Of a stretch of DNA of 43,144 nucleotides, positions 4,978 through 10,042 are shown piece after piece. How positions within the stretch are numbered: the stretch's first letter is position 1; each line of letters starts with the position of its first letter. Origin of the DNA: Bacteroidales bacterium (GTDB lineage: Bacteria; Bacteroidota; Bacteroidia; Bacteroidales; UBA932). The DNA is taken from NCBI GenBank assembly GCA_017443845.1, contig JAFSXX010000013.1, positions 1 to 43,144 on the forward strand, in the 5' to 3' direction. The notes under the pieces are model-generated. The model saw nothing but the letters and a program-made list of their open reading frames with translations, was not told the origin of the DNA and searched no databases. A program made the position numbers and the translations under genes.

Positions 4978-5117
4978 TCCCTCACTCACCAGGGATTTGC
5001 CCGGCGGAGCCGGTCACATCCCTGCCCCGCCTGCGGCGGAAATCGAACAAAGATATCCCTCACTCACCAGGGATTTGCCCGGCGAAGCCGGTCACATCCC
5101 TGCCCCGCCTGCGGCGG
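4978..5117. repeat. 62-bp direct repeat pair containing tRNA-Ser 3'-end sequence
   Basis: Copies at 4978-5039 and 5056-5117 are 78 bp apart and differ at one base. Each starts with TCCCTCACTCACC, exactly the 3' end of the nearby tRNA-Ser but in inverted orientation. Each then contains nested palindromes: GGGAT...ATCCC enclosing CCGGC...GCCGG, then CCGCC TGC GGCGG. The 4878-4977 stretch before them holds no gene that I can see. Confidence 0.85.
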
Positions 5118-5123
5118 GGCTTT

Positions 5124-5187
5124 GCCAAAGGGAGAATAAAATATGGGCACAAGCTTGCTTGCGCCCATATTTTATTCTCCCTTTGGC
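5124..5187 (-). terminator. Long perfect hairpin after tRNA-Ser
   Basis: Arms 5124-5148 and 5163-5187 are a perfect 25-bp inverted repeat. The 14-base loop contains a further CAAGC/GCTTG pairing. On the minus strand the stem starts at the discriminator and CCA of tRNA-Ser (5187-5184), so the tRNA runs straight into it. There is no long U-run, so it may be a processing or termination structure or a repeat element. Confidence 0.6.
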
Positions 5188-5554: not shown

Positions 5555-5782
5555 TTATTTTGAGTGGTCTATCGTTCCCAAGGCTCCCTTTCTGACAATA
5601 AGATTCTCATTTTCATAAGGATTGGTCTCGGACAGGCCTTTCGTCCTGAATGTTTGATATTTGATTTTAAGCAGCTCACGCATCCTGCTGTCCTCAAACA
5701 TAGCCGCCACACTTCCGAAATAGATGTGCGTATGAGTCTCTTTCAACTCAACATGTATTATCGTCCTGTCGTGTTTAAGCAT
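5555..5782 (-). CDS. Small conserved Bacteroidales-type protein, function unknown
   Basis: 75 residues, no signal peptide or membrane segment. The core reads HIYFGSVAAMFED followed by a conserved-looking GLSETNPYENENLIVRKG, a pattern I associate with a small, uncharacterised family of Bacteroidales proteins; this is recollection, not a search. I start at the ATG at 5782; a GTG three codons upstream is possible. The gene is transcribed divergently from the operon ending in the RAYT transposase. Both promoters carry the same 13-bp repeat in their spacers, so it could regulate that operon or be co-regulated with it. Basic and charged residues would allow DNA binding, but no known fold is evident. 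Confidence 0.65.
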   Translation of the reverse strand: MLKHDRTIIHVELKETHTHIYFGSVAAMFEDSRMRELLKIKYQTFRTKGLSETNPYENENLIVRKGALGTIDHSK

Positions 5783-5790
5783 CGCCAACA

Positions 5791-5822
5791 CAAAAATAGC
5801 ACATATCTACAATTCTCGCAAA
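5791..5822 (-). promoter_or_regulatory. Leftward promoter of the small divergent gene
   Basis: On the minus strand TTTG (5822-5819), a 20-bp spacer and TATTTTTG (5798-5791) match the Bacteroidota consensus. It lies 8 bp before the ATG at 5782. Confidence 0.6.
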
Positions 5823-5859
5823 AAAGTAGAAATTATTTTGAAACCCATCTACAATTGTC
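5805..5859. promoter_or_regulatory. Candidate operator pair in divergent promoters
   Basis: ATCTACAATTCTC at 5805-5817 and ATCTACAATTGTC at 5847-5859 match at 12 of 13 positions and are 42 bp apart, about four helical turns. The first lies in the -33/-7 spacer of the leftward promoter, the second in the spacer of the rightward promoter. This placement suggests a shared repressor site. It is inference. Confidence 0.45.
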
Positions 5860-5867
5860 TATATTTG
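5837..5867 (+). promoter_or_regulatory. Rightward promoter of the RAYT operon
   Basis: TTTG (5837-5840), a 19-bp spacer and TATATTTG (5860-5867) are a full consensus match. The first gene starts at 5895. Confidence 0.7.
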
Positions 5868-5894: not shown

Positions 5895-6251
5895 ATGAAA
5901 AAGATTCTTGAAGTTCTCCGATTTGGAGATACCGATATCCGGTTCAATACGGATATCCCTCTGCAAAAGTTGCCCCAAGCGGTACAAACCCTGCCACCGG
6001 AAATCCTTATGGCCATGGCCACTACCCTGTGGGGCGGAAATGAACCGGCCGTTCTCGCAATGATCCGGGTCCTCGCAATCGCTGATCTGGCGCTTTCAGT
6101 AAACAGGGAAGAGATGATTTCCGAGCTGGACGAGGCGTCGAAACACCTGGCCTTAGCATTTAAACGGTCAATCAGGGATGTCTCAAACCAAGGAGGAAAC
6201 ATTGTCATTTTCGGTCCCGGAGTGCCTCCTCCCTCGGCCGATAAAAGCTGA
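5895..6251 (+). CDS. Hypothetical protein encoded with the RAYT transposase
   Basis: 118 residues, soluble, no signal peptide. I do not recognise a family. The N-terminus is MKKILEVLRFGDTDIRFNTD; the middle is helical and hydrophobic (PPEILMAMATTLWGGNEPAVLAMIRVLAIADLALS), and the tail is glycine- and proline-rich. A strong promoter lies 28 bp upstream, and only 17 bp separate its stop from the RAYT start, so the two are very likely one operon. Its role may be linked to the transposase or to the repeat array downstream, but nothing in the sequence shows how. Confidence 0.7.
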   Translation: MKKILEVLRFGDTDIRFNTDIPLQKLPQAVQTLPPEILMAMATTLWGGNEPAVLAMIRVLAIADLALSVNREEMISELDEASKHLALAFKRSIRDVSNQGGNIVIFGPGVPPPSADKS

Positions 6252-6268
6252 TCTGGCGGAGATTTCCG

Positions 6269-7156
6269 ATGAAAATGTTTCTTGTGACCACCGGGAGGCA
6301 TCTCGGTGAGGTCTGGTTCCGGAATGATGAAGACTTCCGGGTGGGTATGAATTGCATCGCGATCATTGCCTTTACTTGCAGGGTAAAGGTCTTGGCCTTC
6401 GTCCTGATGTCCAATCACATTCATATTATTATTTGTTGTGAAGACCAGGAAAAGGCTAAGGCATTTGCAGATGCCTTCAAGAAAAGGTACAGCTACTATC
6501 TGAGGATAAAATATGGCAAAAAAGAATTCCTGCGCAGATCGATATGTGACATCAGGGAAATAAAAAATGAGAACGAGTCCCCGGAGCGGGCAATAGCTTA
6601 TGTGCAGATGAATCCTGTTGCAGCGAATATCTGCTCATCCCCCGTAATGTATCCTTGGGGCACAGGAGCATCCTTTTTCAATCCCGAGAAACCTGACGGA
6701 CGACAACTGAAAGATTTCTCAATAAGGGAGCAATCCAGGATTCTCAGGAGCAATATCCTGCTACCCCCGAAATTGATTATTACGGACAAATTGTTCGCAG
6801 CACCTGAATCTTACGTTGATATTCAATTGGTTGAGAGCATTTTCCACACCGCCAAACGATTCAACTATTTTCTCGAGAACTCATCGAAAATCAAGCATCA
6901 GATCAAAGATCACAACTGCTCCATTCCCTCTTTCAGTGATCAGGCTGTTCTGGCCGCAATTCCAGATCTATATAGATCGCTTTTTTCAGAAAAGTACCCT
7001 GGCTTTTCCAAAGAGACTGAAAGCTCTCTCAGCATCAATCAAAAAATCCTCTTCATCAAACAATTAAAATTCCGATTCAGTTCAGATACCGGACAATTGT
7101 CCAGAGTTACCGGCTGGACCGAATCAGAGATCGCCGACTTGATCAACGCTTTTTGA
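6269..7156 (+). CDS. REP-associated tyrosine transposase (RAYT, Y1/IS200-like HUH domain)
   Basis: 295 residues. The N-terminal ~130 residues form a Y1 transposase domain: metal-binding HUH-type pair His50-Ile-His52 (MSNHIHIIICC), and the nucleophile candidate Tyr111 in AIAYVQMNPVAAN, where Tyr followed by an NP is the RAYT pattern. Such enzymes nick and rejoin single-stranded DNA at imperfect palindromes; they are usually single-copy, domesticated relatives of IS200/IS605 transposases. The C-terminal ~160 residues are of unknown function and may bind DNA. The gene is second in an operon behind a hypothetical gene. Thirty-five bases after its stop begins an array of eight 52-bp palindromic units, which I infer to be its substrate. 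The protein appears intact, with both catalytic motifs present. Confidence 0.88.
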   Translation: MKMFLVTTGRHLGEVWFRNDEDFRVGMNCIAIIAFTCRVKVLAFVLMSNHIHIIICCEDQEKAKAFADAFKKRYSYYLRIKYGKKEFLRRSICDIREIKNENESPERAIAYVQMNPVAANICSSPVMYPWGTGASFFNPEKPDGRQLKDFSIREQSRILRSNILLPPKLIITDKLFAAPESYVDIQLVESIFHTAKRFNYFLENSSKIKHQIKDHNCSIPSFSDQAVLAAIPDLYRSLFSEKYPGFSKETESSLSINQKILFIKQLKFRFSSDTGQLSRVTGWTESEIADLINAF

Positions 7157-7191
7157 ATCTGACCTGGAGTGTCGCCGCTGCCGCTGTCGCT

Positions 7192-7594
7192 GTCGTCGTC
7201 CCAGTTTTTGGGACGACGGCGACACTTTTGGACGGTTGTCGCTGTCGTCGTCCCAGTTTTTGGGACGACGGCGACACTTTTGGACGGTTGCCGCTGTCGT
7301 CGTCCCACTTTTTGGGACGACGGCGACACTTTCGGACGGTTTCCGCTGTCGTCGTCCCAGTTTTTGGGACGACGGCGACACTTTCGAGCGGTTTCCGCTG
7401 TCGTCGTCCCACTTTTTGGGACGACGGCGACACTTTTGGGCCGTTGCCGCTGTCGTCGTCCCATTTTTTGGGACGACAGCGACACTTTCGGACGGTTTTC
7501 GCTGCTGTCGTCCCATTTTTTGGGACGACGGCGACACTTTCGAGCGGTTTCCGCTGTCGTCGTCCCATTTTTTGGGACGACGACGACACTTCGG
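7192..7594. repeat. Array of eight tandem 52-bp palindromic repeats (REP-like)
   Basis: Units start at 7192, 7244, 7296, 7348, 7400, 7452, 7504 and 7556, an exact 52-bp period; the last is cut short. Each holds a 12-bp stem, GTCGTCGTCCCA against TGGGACGACGGC, with a short T-rich loop (first loop base G, C or T). A 23-25-base linker follows with the shared core GACACTTT. Changes in units 7 and 8 turn a G-U stem pair into Watson-Crick pairs; unit 6 has one mismatch. The stems are more conserved than the linkers. A degenerate GC-rich lead-in occupies 7168-7191. Many reading frames are open through the array on both strands, but only because the repeat lacks stop codons. Confidence 0.95.
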
Positions 7595-7651
7595 GCAAGT
7601 CCATGAGCCCTTCCCCCTCTCTGGCGAACGGTGCCTAGGCTCAAGGCATAA

Positions 7652-7684
7652 AGAATCCCGGCGGAGGCGTTCCGCCGGGATTCT
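7652..7684 (-). terminator. Hairpin between convergent genes
   Basis: A perfect 14-bp inverted repeat (7652-7665 and 7671-7684) with a 5-base loop. On the minus strand it is followed by TTTAT, so it most likely terminates the surface-lipoprotein transcript. It also separates that transcript from the palindrome array. Confidence 0.6.
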
Positions 7685-7732: not shown

Positions 7733-10042
7733 TCAGTTATTAGCCTTCCAAGTAACCGTCAGGGGGGCTCCGGTGTGGAGGTCGAGGAGGGTTACGGGGA
7801 TGGGAATGTCGGTTTTGTAGCCGGAGTTGACGTAGCGCAATGTGGTGGTTGCCAGCCAGTCGGCGGTCTCCTGGACGCAGTAGATGGTCATCGCTCCGGG
7901 GACTGAGCCGGTACGGTCGGTCATCTCCACTTCCTTGGTGCCGGCCATGAAGTTGGTCGGCGACTGTCCGGACGGATTGATGAATTTCTCTCCGAGCCTG
8001 AGGACCGCAAGGTTCTTGCAGAGCTGGAACATATAGGTCATCGTGGTGGAAGATCCTGTATCCCAGTTGGTGAGGTCGATCTCGCGCGCCTGGTTCTTAT
8101 AGAACATATATGAGAACTTGGAGAGGTAGGTTACGTCAAATTCGGAGAGGTCGAGTTTTCCGGAGTCCTCGGCGCAGTTGTATGCGAACATATATGCGCT
8201 GCTGGTGACGTTTTCCCAGGTGTTGGTGGTGGATTTGACCTTCTTGAGGTTCTTGTCGTATGCGAAGATATACCTCAGGCCGGTGACGTTGTCGGCATCC
8301 TTGAAGATATCCATATCGAACTCGGTTATCCAGTAGTTCTTGCGGAACATGCTGTTGATGTTCGTCATCTCGTCGCACTCGATGACCTCGGGCAGCTTGA
8401 GTTCCACGAGGGAGGAATCGTATGCGAACATCAGGTAGCAAGTGGAGTCCAGAGCGAATTTGAAATTGCTGATGTCAAGCCTCTCGAGCATACCGCAATA
8501 TTCGAACATCATACCCATGTCGGTGGCTGCCGAGGTGTTGAATTTTGTGACGTCCAGCTCCTTCAGGCTCGCGTTGTTGTAGAATATGTTGCGGAAGTTG
8601 ACGACGTTCTCGGTGTTGATGTCGGCAGGGAAGGTGAGGCTCTTGAGGTGCTCGTCATAGTAGAACATATTGGCCATCGAGGTATCCATCGAGAAGTCGA
8701 AGTTGCTGAGGTCGAGTTCTTCGAGGTGACGGCAGTTGCCGAACATAAAGCGCATATTCTCCACCTTGGAGGTGTTGAAGTTGCTGACATCGAGGTGCTC
8801 GAGGGCGCGGAGGCTATTGAACATCGAGCCCATGTCGACGCAGTTCGAAGTATTGAAGCCGCTGACATCCAGGCTCTTGAGCGCATAGAGGGTGGTATCC
8901 TCGGGGGTATGCTGGCTGAACATCGAATTCATTGTGACTGCAGCTTCGGTGTCGAGGGACCTGAGGTTGTCGAAACCCTGGACCAGCATCAGGCGGAAGA
9001 ACATCGAACTTGCATCTTCGCAGGTTGCGAAGCCCTTGGCCGCGGTGGAGAGGGTAAGCACGCCGGAGGTGGGCTCGAGGTATGCGTAGGCCGCAACGGG
9101 AGAGTCGGCCGCACTCACGAGGATACCTTCGGTCGAGGGATCGCAGGTCGAGAAGACGATGCGGGTGATACTGTAATCGTAATCAGTAGTAAATGCGCCG
9201 GGAGCGGTGATACCCTTGATGGCGGCGTTGAACTCGGGACCGGGAAGCAGGACGGCCTTGCCCTCAACGGCGGCGGATGCGGTGAAGTTGTTGAATGCCA
9301 GCGCCACGTCGTGGACCTTCGAACGCTCGGCGACCAGGTTCGAGCCGGACTTCATCGTCAGGCTCTGGCTGCGGCCGTCCATAAGCACCACGGTAACGCT
9401 CAGGCCGGTGTAGGTGCCAGCGGGAACCGTCACGAAGAAGGGCACGGGATCGGCTCCGATGGCTACGCCATCGCCGCAGTTCAGCGTCAGGCCGGAGGTG
9501 CCGCTCACAACGGCAGCGTCGTTTTCGACGGTGAACTCTCCGCTGAGGCCCTGGTCGGCCTTCAGCACGATACGCTTGACGGCAGCGCCCGCTTCACCGG
9601 TGGTGATGTTGAGCCTCAGCATCGAGGTCAGGTTCTTGAATGCCAGCGTCTCGTTCGCCGAGGTCGCCATCATCGGTACGTACTCTACGTTACCTGCCAC
9701 ATAGTTCTGCACTGCGGGAAGGCCCTTGGCGATATCCGCCGGGGAATATGCGGTATAGGGGGCCTCGGCGTCTAACTCCTCGTTGACACTCTTGATAAAG
9801 TATGTGGAAGCCACCTCGCCGACTGTCGCGATATAGACGATGTCGTTGATTTTGATCTTCTCGCCGAACTTCCAGGTCACGTGCCATACGTCCGCGTCGG
9901 CGGTCAGCGATGCGCGGGTGCCATCGACGATGACGCCCTCGAATGTCTTGGAATCCTTCGAAGCGACAGGGGTCACTTCTGCCATCTGGCAGCCTGCAAG
10001 CAGTGATGCGGCAGCCGCGATTGCAAATAAGGTCTTCTTCAT
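7733..10042 (-). CDS. Surface lipoprotein with fimbrillin-like N-terminus and BspA/DUF285 repeats
   Basis: 769 residues. The lipobox LLAGC puts the lipidated Cys at position 18. Residues ~30-260 resemble the fimbrillin-like domain of Bacteroidales surface proteins (for example FKNLTSMLRLNITTGEAG). From about residue 370 to 710 run DUF285/BspA-type units with the recurring pattern LDVSNFNTS...MxxMF, for example LKSLDVSGFNTSN and LEELDLSNFDFS, spaced about 24-30 residues apart. BspA-like proteins mediate adhesion to host proteins or other bacteria. A strong GGGAGGG ribosome-binding-like sequence precedes the start, and a 51-residue peptide gene ends 13 bp upstream on the same strand. It is probably an outer-surface adhesin; the ligand is unknown. 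Confidence 0.88.
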   Translation of the reverse strand: MKKTLFAIAAAASLLAGCQMAEVTPVASKDSKTFEGVIVDGTRASLTADADVWHVTWKFGEKIKINDIVYIATVGEVASTYFIKSVNEELDAEAPYTAYSPADIAKGLPAVQNYVAGNVEYVPMMATSANETLAFKNLTSMLRLNITTGEAGAAVKRIVLKADQGLSGEFTVENDAAVVSGTSGLTLNCGDGVAIGADPVPFFVTVPAGTYTGLSVTVVLMDGRSQSLTMKSGSNLVAERSKVHDVALAFNNFTASAAVEGKAVLLPGPEFNAAIKGITAPGAFTTDYDYSITRIVFSTCDPSTEGILVSAADSPVAAYAYLEPTSGVLTLSTAAKGFATCEDASSMFFRLMLVQGFDNLRSLDTEAAVTMNSMFSQHTPEDTTLYALKSLDVSGFNTSNCVDMGSMFNSLRALEHLDVSNFNTSKVENMRFMFGNCRHLEELDLSNFDFSMDTSMANMFYYDEHLKSLTFPADINTENVVNFRNIFYNNASLKELDVTKFNTSAATDMGMMFEYCGMLERLDISNFKFALDSTCYLMFAYDSSLVELKLPEVIECDEMTNINSMFRKNYWITEFDMDIFKDADNVTGLRYIFAYDKNLKKVKSTTNTWENVTSSAYMFAYNCAEDSGKLDLSEFDVTYLSKFSYMFYKNQAREIDLTNWDTGSSTTMTYMFQLCKNLAVLRLGEKFINPSGQSPTNFMAGTKEVEMTDRTGSVPGAMTIYCVQETADWLATTTLRYVNSGYKTDIPIPVTLLDLHTGAPLTVTWKANN

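Follow-up and report, generated by a model that had tools for sequence, protein, structure and literature searches.

Organization of the RAYT locus

The window, that is, the whole stretch of DNA analyzed here, is a 43,144-bp contig (C52) in the draft genome of a Bacteroidales bacterium (2.06 Mb, 57 contigs). It encodes a tyrosine transposase associated with repetitive extragenic palindromic (REP) sequences (RAYT), preceded by a small gene and followed by a tandem array of hairpins, which together probably belong to a divergent RAYT system in which the distance between two hairpins matters more than their sequence. The small gene (5895..6251, plus strand) encodes a protein of 118 amino acids (aa) that belongs to no known family; its stop codon lies 17 bp ahead of the RAYT gene, with which it forms a two-gene unit. 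The RAYT-like protein (6269..7156, plus strand) is a long HuH/Tyr (Y1) transposase of 295 aa, with about 150 aa C-terminal of the Tyr domain. An earlier note, made from the letters of this stretch alone, had described an intact RAYT with the residues His50-x-His52 and Tyr111; all three residues are present in the open reading frame (ORF) and are conserved without exception in the 85 aligned sequences, among them the window RAYT. The protein matches the Pfam model Y1_Tnp with 24.8 bits (cut-off 23), and the class 2 signature Y---NP reads YVQMNP.

The array (7188..7604, plus strand) consists of eight palindromes with a period of 52 bp. Their 21-bp cores start at 7196, 7248, 7300, 7352, 7404, 7456, 7508 and 7560, and all seven core spacings are exactly 52. 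Tandem Repeats Finder (TRF) delimits the array as 7188-7591 (period 52, 7.8 copies, 92% matches, 0% indels, score 640). The first hairpin (7192..7220, plus strand) has a stem of 12 bp and a loop of 5 nt; in this unit, the stem continues below a bulge. From the RAYT stop codon to the first stem (7192), the distance is 35 bp, in agreement with the earlier note. Each unit has an inner stem of 8 bp with a loop of 5 nt (mostly T-rich) and an outer stem that varies; 3' of the palindrome follow a one-sided foot, CGACACTT, which is conserved, and a linker. The left end of the array (7168..7191, plus strand) carries the foot AGTGTCGCC, the mirror of CGACACTT; among six array starts compared, this foot is exact in the window and on contig C45, and partial on C25. 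No repeat matching the array was called within 1 kb upstream of the RAYT gene.

Folded as single-stranded DNA (ssDNA), the array reaches a z-score of -15, with none of 100 shuffles folding equally well, and three single units folded as DNA score between -4.1 and -6.9. Changes in the stems of units 7 and 8 had been proposed to preserve pairing and hence to indicate selection. The stems of both units do pair; unit 8, however, differs on one side only, and unit 6 loses a pair. Across 39 units of this repeat in the genome (38 distinct), six of the 12 stem pairs never vary, all within the 8-bp inner stem. The argument from compensatory changes therefore fails, because the outer pairs are frequently broken (in up to 16 of the 38 units) and co-variation does not exceed that of shuffles (431 of 500 at least as high). 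The period of 52 is not divisible by three, so the long ORFs across the array do not amount to a uniform coding repeat, and we rejected this option. A known RNA family was also rejected: at gathering score, Rfam yields three tRNAs in the window and nothing in the array.

Palindrome spacing in the RAYT clades

For comparison, 83 RAYT loci were assigned to six clades, A to F, named by hand from the tree, with the window RAYT in clade A. The sources were 61 relatives (matches in 30, all belonging to the window's own genus; 75 of 119 matches used), the window's own genome (two more loci), the named record L138 and the loci of the 118-aa gene. L055 (an outlier), L127 (truncated) and L210 (the same place as L070) were excluded from the clade counts, as was L097, which gave no hit. 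The near-duplicates L103, L115 and L133 were kept in the clade doublet counts and left out of the counts of center spacing, foot motif and palindrome families. A doublet was defined as two like palindromes 35-130 bp apart; direct likeness was required in the clade and control scan, and likeness in either orientation was accepted in the counts of orientation, fresh set, center spacing and palindrome families.

A doublet was detected at 10 of the 16 clade A loci, spaced 50-53 bp in all 10, and at 18 of the 33 clade B loci (near-duplicates included), again at 50-53 bp in every case, with one side of one locus at 37. In clade C, a doublet occurs at seven of eight loci; its spacing is 75 bp at six of them and 62 at L125. 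The single doublet among the four clade D loci, at L095 (G025:C34), is found on both flanks with the palindromes 104-105 bp apart, about twice 52. By comparison, control stretches of the same genomes contain doublets in 3 of 222 segments, all spaced at 51 and located at two places of genome G022: L146 (G022:C1:100000-104000, the segment from 1300; one segment) and L174 (G022:C1:150000-154000; two segments). L174 holds a 51-bp tandem array at about 2400-2750, and these control doublets may themselves be dispersed copies.

In agreement with this picture, a self-offset scan passed 40 of 154 RAYT flanks, with an offset of 51 seen seven times and 52 three times, along with 50, 102 (twice), 104, 105 and 152; among control segments, 5 of 148 passed, one of them at 51 (RAYT versus control for 51/52 alone, p ~0.01). 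A first count that did not demand palindrome likeness was weaker: of 60 distances at RAYT loci, 24 (from 19 loci) fell at 50-53, versus 5 of 20 for control stretches and 0 of 2 for shuffled sequence.

Then 32 loci were added, 25 of which served as a fresh set (the other seven were at places used before); 23 of the 25 belong to other genera of the family. Ten of the 25 carry a doublet (eight in other genera), all at 51 or 52 bp; counted by side, 12 of 13 are at 51/52 and the remaining one is at 102. Altogether, 35 of the 46 doublet loci fall within 49-54 bp. Among these 35, the center spacing is 51.21 with a standard deviation of 0.50, at linker lengths of 8-26 nt and palindrome lengths of 23-47 nt. 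The palindromes of 36 loci (clades A and B and their kin) group into 24 families less than 70% alike, each with a spacing of 50-52 bp. A linker motif, GCAAAAA..CGGCC..TTTTTGC, is suggestive by eye, but no sharp consensus emerges from the averaged base profile. Because the spacing is constant over 24 palindrome families and differs by RAYT clade, the distance follows the lineage of the enzyme more than the sequence of the hairpin. Thus, to judge from these comparisons, it is the spacing rather than the sequence that seems to be conserved across the bacterial family.

Dispersed arrays and additional RAYTs in the genome

The core pattern of the window hairpin matches the genome 41 times (29 forward, 12 reverse) at 40 places, one of which is matched on both strands; the reversed pattern, used as a control, gave no match. 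These 40 units are distributed over eight arrays, each with 3 to 8 of them; 32 units belong to the seven arrays besides that of the window. The internal spacing is 52 bp in 31 of 32 cases and 31 bp in the remaining one. The earlier note had suggested a search for copies elsewhere in the genome, which exist as the seven further arrays, and for single units in intergenic regions: there is no isolated copy among the core-pattern matches. Its description of a self-contained module holds for the link between array and gene and fails for the notion of a single module, given that none of the seven dispersed arrays adjoins a RAYT; the closest listed RAYT on their contigs is about 5.4 kb away (C12).

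The dispersed arrays neighbor genes for phosphoglycerate mutase, a PrmC-like methyltransferase, DnaK, a UvrD-type helicase, a cytidylate-kinase-like protein, a DPP-IV-like peptidase and HisG. Five of the seven lie no more than about 165 bp from the 3' end of a gene, and the other two are located 5' of a gene at contig ends, where one flank is visible; both orientations relative to the neighboring gene occur. Units are more similar within arrays (mean identity 0.857 over 39 units) than between arrays (0.766; none of 5000 permutations as high), with core identities of 0.94 and 0.91, respectively, and a linker identity within arrays of 0.80. The arrays thus seem to have grown locally from a common hairpin, as suggested by units that resemble those of their own array more and by a core that is conserved between arrays.

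Beyond this genome, the hairpin pattern (up to 2 mismatches) was found in 7 of the 61 relatives and in 6 of 159 genomes of the family, two genomes having matches in both counts. In a genome of another genus of the family, two matches lie 52 bp apart (G357:C44:39942 and 39994). More than three matches occur only in the window's own genome (41) and in G029 (13), both of which encode a clade A RAYT. The G029 RAYT is 46% identical to that of the window and is followed by a doublet of the same core hairpin. Four dispersed doublets of G029 were inspected, with a fifth pair and two single matches outside this inspection; each is about 85 bp long, with palindromes 51 bp apart and roughly mirrored outer ends (e.g. 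GTGCCTATCG..CGATAGGCAC). The earlier note had named two findings that would speak against its interpretation, namely that related RAYTs never have such arrays, or that the repeat is common in genomes lacking the enzyme. Neither is the case, since related RAYTs carry arrays or doublets, and the two genomes rich in the repeat both have the enzyme. Its reading of a RAYT with its repeats is partly supported: largely right, but incomplete, as the conservation of spacing across the family was missed.

Nine RAYT-like genes were identified in the genome at an E-value of 0.01, the eight others being 24-46% identical to that of the window. Two of these, from clade B, have tandem palindromes of unrelated sequence on both sides, with a period of 51 bp. 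The family CGGTGAGTG..CGCTCACCGA flanks one of them with 8 and 14 units, and the family CCGTCCATGAA..TTTATGGACGG flanks the other with 10 and 10 units, by TRF. In contrast to the window palindromes, which recur in seven other arrays, these two families were not found elsewhere in their own genome: with up to 3 mismatches allowed, all 18 pattern matches of the first and all 19 of the second lie at home. A further RAYT of this genome, L054 (G000:C23:3000-14000), is accompanied by about eight tandem copies of a 73-bp unit; it belongs to clade E, where the doublet scan gave none. The arrays at L034 score higher in TRF as repeats of 153/152 bp (543 and 891) than of 51 bp (453 and 749), which denotes blocks of three units; units three apart are 0.96 identical in the downstream array (one pair), and the upstream array has no such preference. 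At L035 and L086, a likeness of units six apart was detected from few pairs.

The partner gene and flanking features

The arrangement of the 118-aa gene ahead of the RAYT, which the earlier note had regarded as part of one operon, is conserved. Homologs of the 118-aa protein with 50-55% identity are encoded in 8 of 60 relatives besides the window's own genome, all within the genus, and in all nine loci, the window included, a RAYT-length ORF begins 2-17 nt past the stop codon of the small gene. Seven of the eight RAYTs in question belong to the distant clade C; the remaining one, from G015, groups as sister to the window RAYT with a support of 0.91. Five of the seven clade C RAYTs are 22-23% identical to the window RAYT, and the other two are best matched by other RAYTs. 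No 118-aa homolog was found at the locus of the eighth clade C member, L125. Because its RAYT partners fall into clades A and C, the gene pair appears to have been kept, or exchanged, across a deep RAYT divergence. The 118-aa protein has no match up to an E-value of 1 in Pfam, NCBIfam or PHROGs, and a single-sequence structure model of it was unusable (mean predicted local distance difference test, pLDDT, 47; predicted template modeling score, pTM, 0.29).

A promoter-like stretch (5838..5867, plus strand) lies 5' of the 118-aa gene and matches the consensus only, as TTGAAA-16-TATATT; across the region, 4 such matches were found versus 2.1 expected from shuffles. The same stretch contains TATATTTG, which we take to resemble the Bacteroides -7 element. 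Divergent from the 118-aa gene is a 78-aa ORF (5558-5791, minus strand) without a match in Pfam or NCBIfam, homologs of which adjoin the RAYT loci L214 (80% identity) and L138 (67%). Farther upstream, an inverted repeat with 30-bp arms and a 4-bp loop (5124-5187) adjoins a tRNA-Ser gene and is preceded by a 22-mer in two copies (5010-5031 and 5088-5109); the exact 22-mer was found in 2 of 250 loci, both spanning the same place in the window. Downstream, a gene for a 769-aa protein with DUF285 repeats (7736-10042, minus strand) is convergent to the array, and a hairpin with a stem of 14-15 bp (7652-7684) lies between the two.

Comparison with known REP systems

At 50-53 bp, 18 pairs of palindromes are head-to-tail and six are inverted (24 sides), and at 74-76 bp, six of six are inverted. 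Thus, an inverted pair, the unit of REP doublets forming hairpins (REPINs), is not the rule at 50-53 bp, and the other REPIN feature, a fixed spacing of the palindromes, is present (50-52 bp at 36 loci of clades A and B and their kin). The roughly mirrored outer ends of the G029 doublets leave room for a REPIN origin. Given these ends and the AGTGTCGCC and CGACACTT feet at the window array, the array may be a doublet element that was lengthened inside.

In Pseudomonas fluorescens SBW25, as described in PMC3116915, each RAYT has its own palindrome family, with clusters beside the RAYT, dispersed copies and some ordered tandem arrays; REPs have preferred next-neighbor distances of 71 and 110 bp, 93% of the doublets are inverted, and spacing varies by REP group. 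The present system is alike in having a palindrome family for each RAYT, RAYT-side clusters, dispersed copies, tandem arrays and preferred distances, and differs in that a head-to-tail order prevails at 50-53 bp (18 of 24 pairs) and one spacing extends over 24 families. The 75-bp inverted pairs of clade C are not unlike the 71-bp GI doublets of that species (PMC3116915).

According to Nunvar 2010 (PMC2817692), gammaproteobacterial RAYT genes are bracketed by palindromes, one third adjoin bacterial interspersed mosaic elements (BIMEs), and in some species REPs cluster near the gene; array formation driven by RAYTs was already proposed there. All three features, namely palindromes bracketing the gene, REPs nearby and array formation attributed to the RAYT, have counterparts here, whereas the GT(A/G)G head and the inverted flanking REPs of that account are not the rule. 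The TnpA-Y1 subclass 2.6 (RAYT group 5) of PMC6006769 is likewise from Bacteroidetes, with an NH[LIV]H motif and 'atypical secondary structures' by the gene that have copies elsewhere in the genome. Compared by description only, its proteins differ, with 179 aa and a YIH[QN]NP motif versus 270-325 aa in clades A and B, mostly without a P after Y---N. The GTAG and CGTC REPs of PMC3733652 are palindromes of similar size that also form dimers and clusters; the CGTC REPs do not, as described in that source, flank transposase genes. Here, CGTC sits within the stem and pairs are mostly head-to-tail, and membership in the CGTC REPs was rejected on account of this position in the stem. IS200/IS605 elements also combine an HuH motif and a single catalytic Tyr with hairpins by the gene, but near-identical copies are lacking here, with no other RAYT above 46% identity in the draft genome.

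RAYTs, adjoining REPs, tandem clusters and a preferred pair spacing inside one REP family are thus already published. What we read as novel relative to the known REPIN-RAYT systems is the lack of a GTAG tag, the mostly head-to-tail pairs, the proposed sequence-independent ruler and the conserved partner gene.

Proposed mechanism and alternative explanations

We interpret the locus as a divergent system of the REPIN-RAYT type in this Bacteroidales family, in which the enzyme measures the distance between two hairpins and the window array is a doublet amplified head-to-tail, with copies dispersed in trans; we assign this interpretation a probability of about two in three. It includes the suggestion of the earlier note that the array is the amplification product of an enzyme-linked repeat, which we judge to be its likeliest nature. 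Known RAYTs cut ssDNA 5' and 3' of their REP, as reported in PMC8266576. In our interpretation, the RAYT would be an ssDNA endonuclease that recognizes the hairpins flanking its own gene, and its working substrate, in these clades, would be a pair of like hairpins with centers 51-52 nt apart. The center distance is fixed while hairpin and linker vary, which fits either a complex with two hairpins or an excised unit of defined length; if the complex or the excised unit sets the distance, the hairpin sequence would be free to diverge and the distance would not. Cutting beside each hairpin and rejoining between units would gain or lose whole units of 51-52 nt, turning a doublet into a head-to-tail home array, and copy number might also be altered by duplication of blocks, through slippage or recombination. 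In the window's own genome, the arrays at seven other intergenic sites would stem from dispersal of the hairpin in trans. A conserved partner of the RAYT, the 118-aa protein perhaps aids hairpin recognition. The sequences themselves show the anatomy, the constant spacing and its association with RAYT clades, the distinction of home and dispersed arrays and the partnership of the two genes.

A more specific and tentative version would make the RAYT, in some lineages with the 118-aa protein, a molecular ruler that acts on two like hairpins of any sequence only if their centers are 51-52 nt apart. It would excise or copy one unit as a tiny ssDNA circle with a single hairpin, so that arrays would lengthen in head-to-tail fashion beside the enzyme gene and could be seeded elsewhere; this would be a length-defined repeat amplifier, distinct from the inverted-pair REPINs. 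We regard this version as possible, and as substantially less secure than the general interpretation.

Several observations weigh against the proposed system. The window RAYT scores 43.6 bits (E-value 2.5e-11) against the NCBIfam model REP_Tyr_transpos, short of the curated cut-off of 80; among seven other RAYTs, this model matches three with 14-36 bits and four not at all, and all seven also fall under the Pfam Y1_Tnp cut-off. The N of the Y---NP signature is present throughout clades A and B, and the P in 5 of 16 members of clade A and in none of 33 of clade B. The canonical GT[AG]G at the hairpin foot was found in 4 of 118 palindromes (27 loci; chance, ~6%) and at none of the window units. 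Doublets are missing from 6 of 16 clade A loci, 15 of 33 clade B loci and all 22 loci of clades E and F, and 11 of the 46 doublet loci are outside 49-54 bp (75 at six loci, 62 at two, and 37, 102 and 104 at a single locus each). At 30 loci from other families of the order (one each from 30 of 138 genomes with a match, gene borders approximated), repeats were detected in 22 of 57 segments, none at 51/52, with single cases at 53, 54 and 55; a 51-52 period common to all RAYTs of the order is therefore rejected. The spacing could be inherited rather than enforced, though the palindromes have diverged below 70% likeness. Finally, cleavage, strand transfer, amplification by the enzyme and the role of the 118-aa protein are inferred, no cleavage or movement having been observed, and the block repeats fit slippage or recombination equally well.

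The last point leads to the strongest alternative, in which the hairpins are RAYT-linked REPs and the arrays are passive products of slippage or unequal recombination from a starting doublet, with the enzyme irrelevant to array length. The block repeats at L034, and more weakly at L035 and L086, suggest that slippage or recombination also acts: both L034 arrays have three-unit blocks by TRF scores (with the identity preference downstream only, from one pair), and the six-unit likeness at L035 and L086 comes from few pairs. The homogeneity within arrays and the one off-period spacing of 31 bp point the same way. Passive growth would not account, however, for a spacing that stays at 50-52 bp across 24 palindrome families, or for the spread of one family to seven further sites, and we consider it a serious contender that falls short of being probable.

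An array of protein-binding sites, like the Escherichia coli BIME-2 (gyrase) or BIME-1 (IHF), with the palindromes on one face of the DNA and a role in control of the nucleoid or of supercoiling, is unlikely. BIMEs bind IHF and gyrase (PMC2817692), a spacing of 51-52 bp is near five turns of B-DNA, A/T-tract k-mers surround the palindromes (AAAAAC/GTTTTT at 18 loci, a count without control), and five of the seven dispersed arrays are close to a gene 3' end, as noted above. Yet the palindrome sequence differs among RAYTs of one genome, unlike sites for a single host protein, and the spacing tracks the RAYT clade (51-52 or 75), with 75 bp corresponding to ~7.1 turns. A still less probable option is a 3' structure in the mRNA of the RAYT operon that would affect stability, termination or attenuation; it would account for the strong fold (computed as DNA) 35 bp past the stop codon, but similar arrays occur without a RAYT next to them and in both orientations relative to the neighboring gene, home arrays also occur upstream of RAYTs, and no terminator-like site was called inside the array, so that a terminator array was rejected. 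A CRISPR-like or other spacer-acquiring array, brought to mind by regular repeats adjoining an enzyme gene, was rejected and has hardly any probability left, because the linkers are themselves repeats (0.80 within arrays) rather than unique spacers, and the array has no Rfam match at gathering score, no search aimed at cas families having been made.

The proposed distance-measuring RAYT system bears on the way in which RAYTs spread REPs and on the nature of the replicating unit. The family harbors many long RAYT-like genes, those scanned falling under the cut-off of the curated RAYT model, and a conserved partner gene is added here to RAYTs. A spacing of 50-52 bp over 24 palindrome families, as opposed to 75 bp in another clade, amounts to a geometric trait that is directly assayable and for which natural variants exist.
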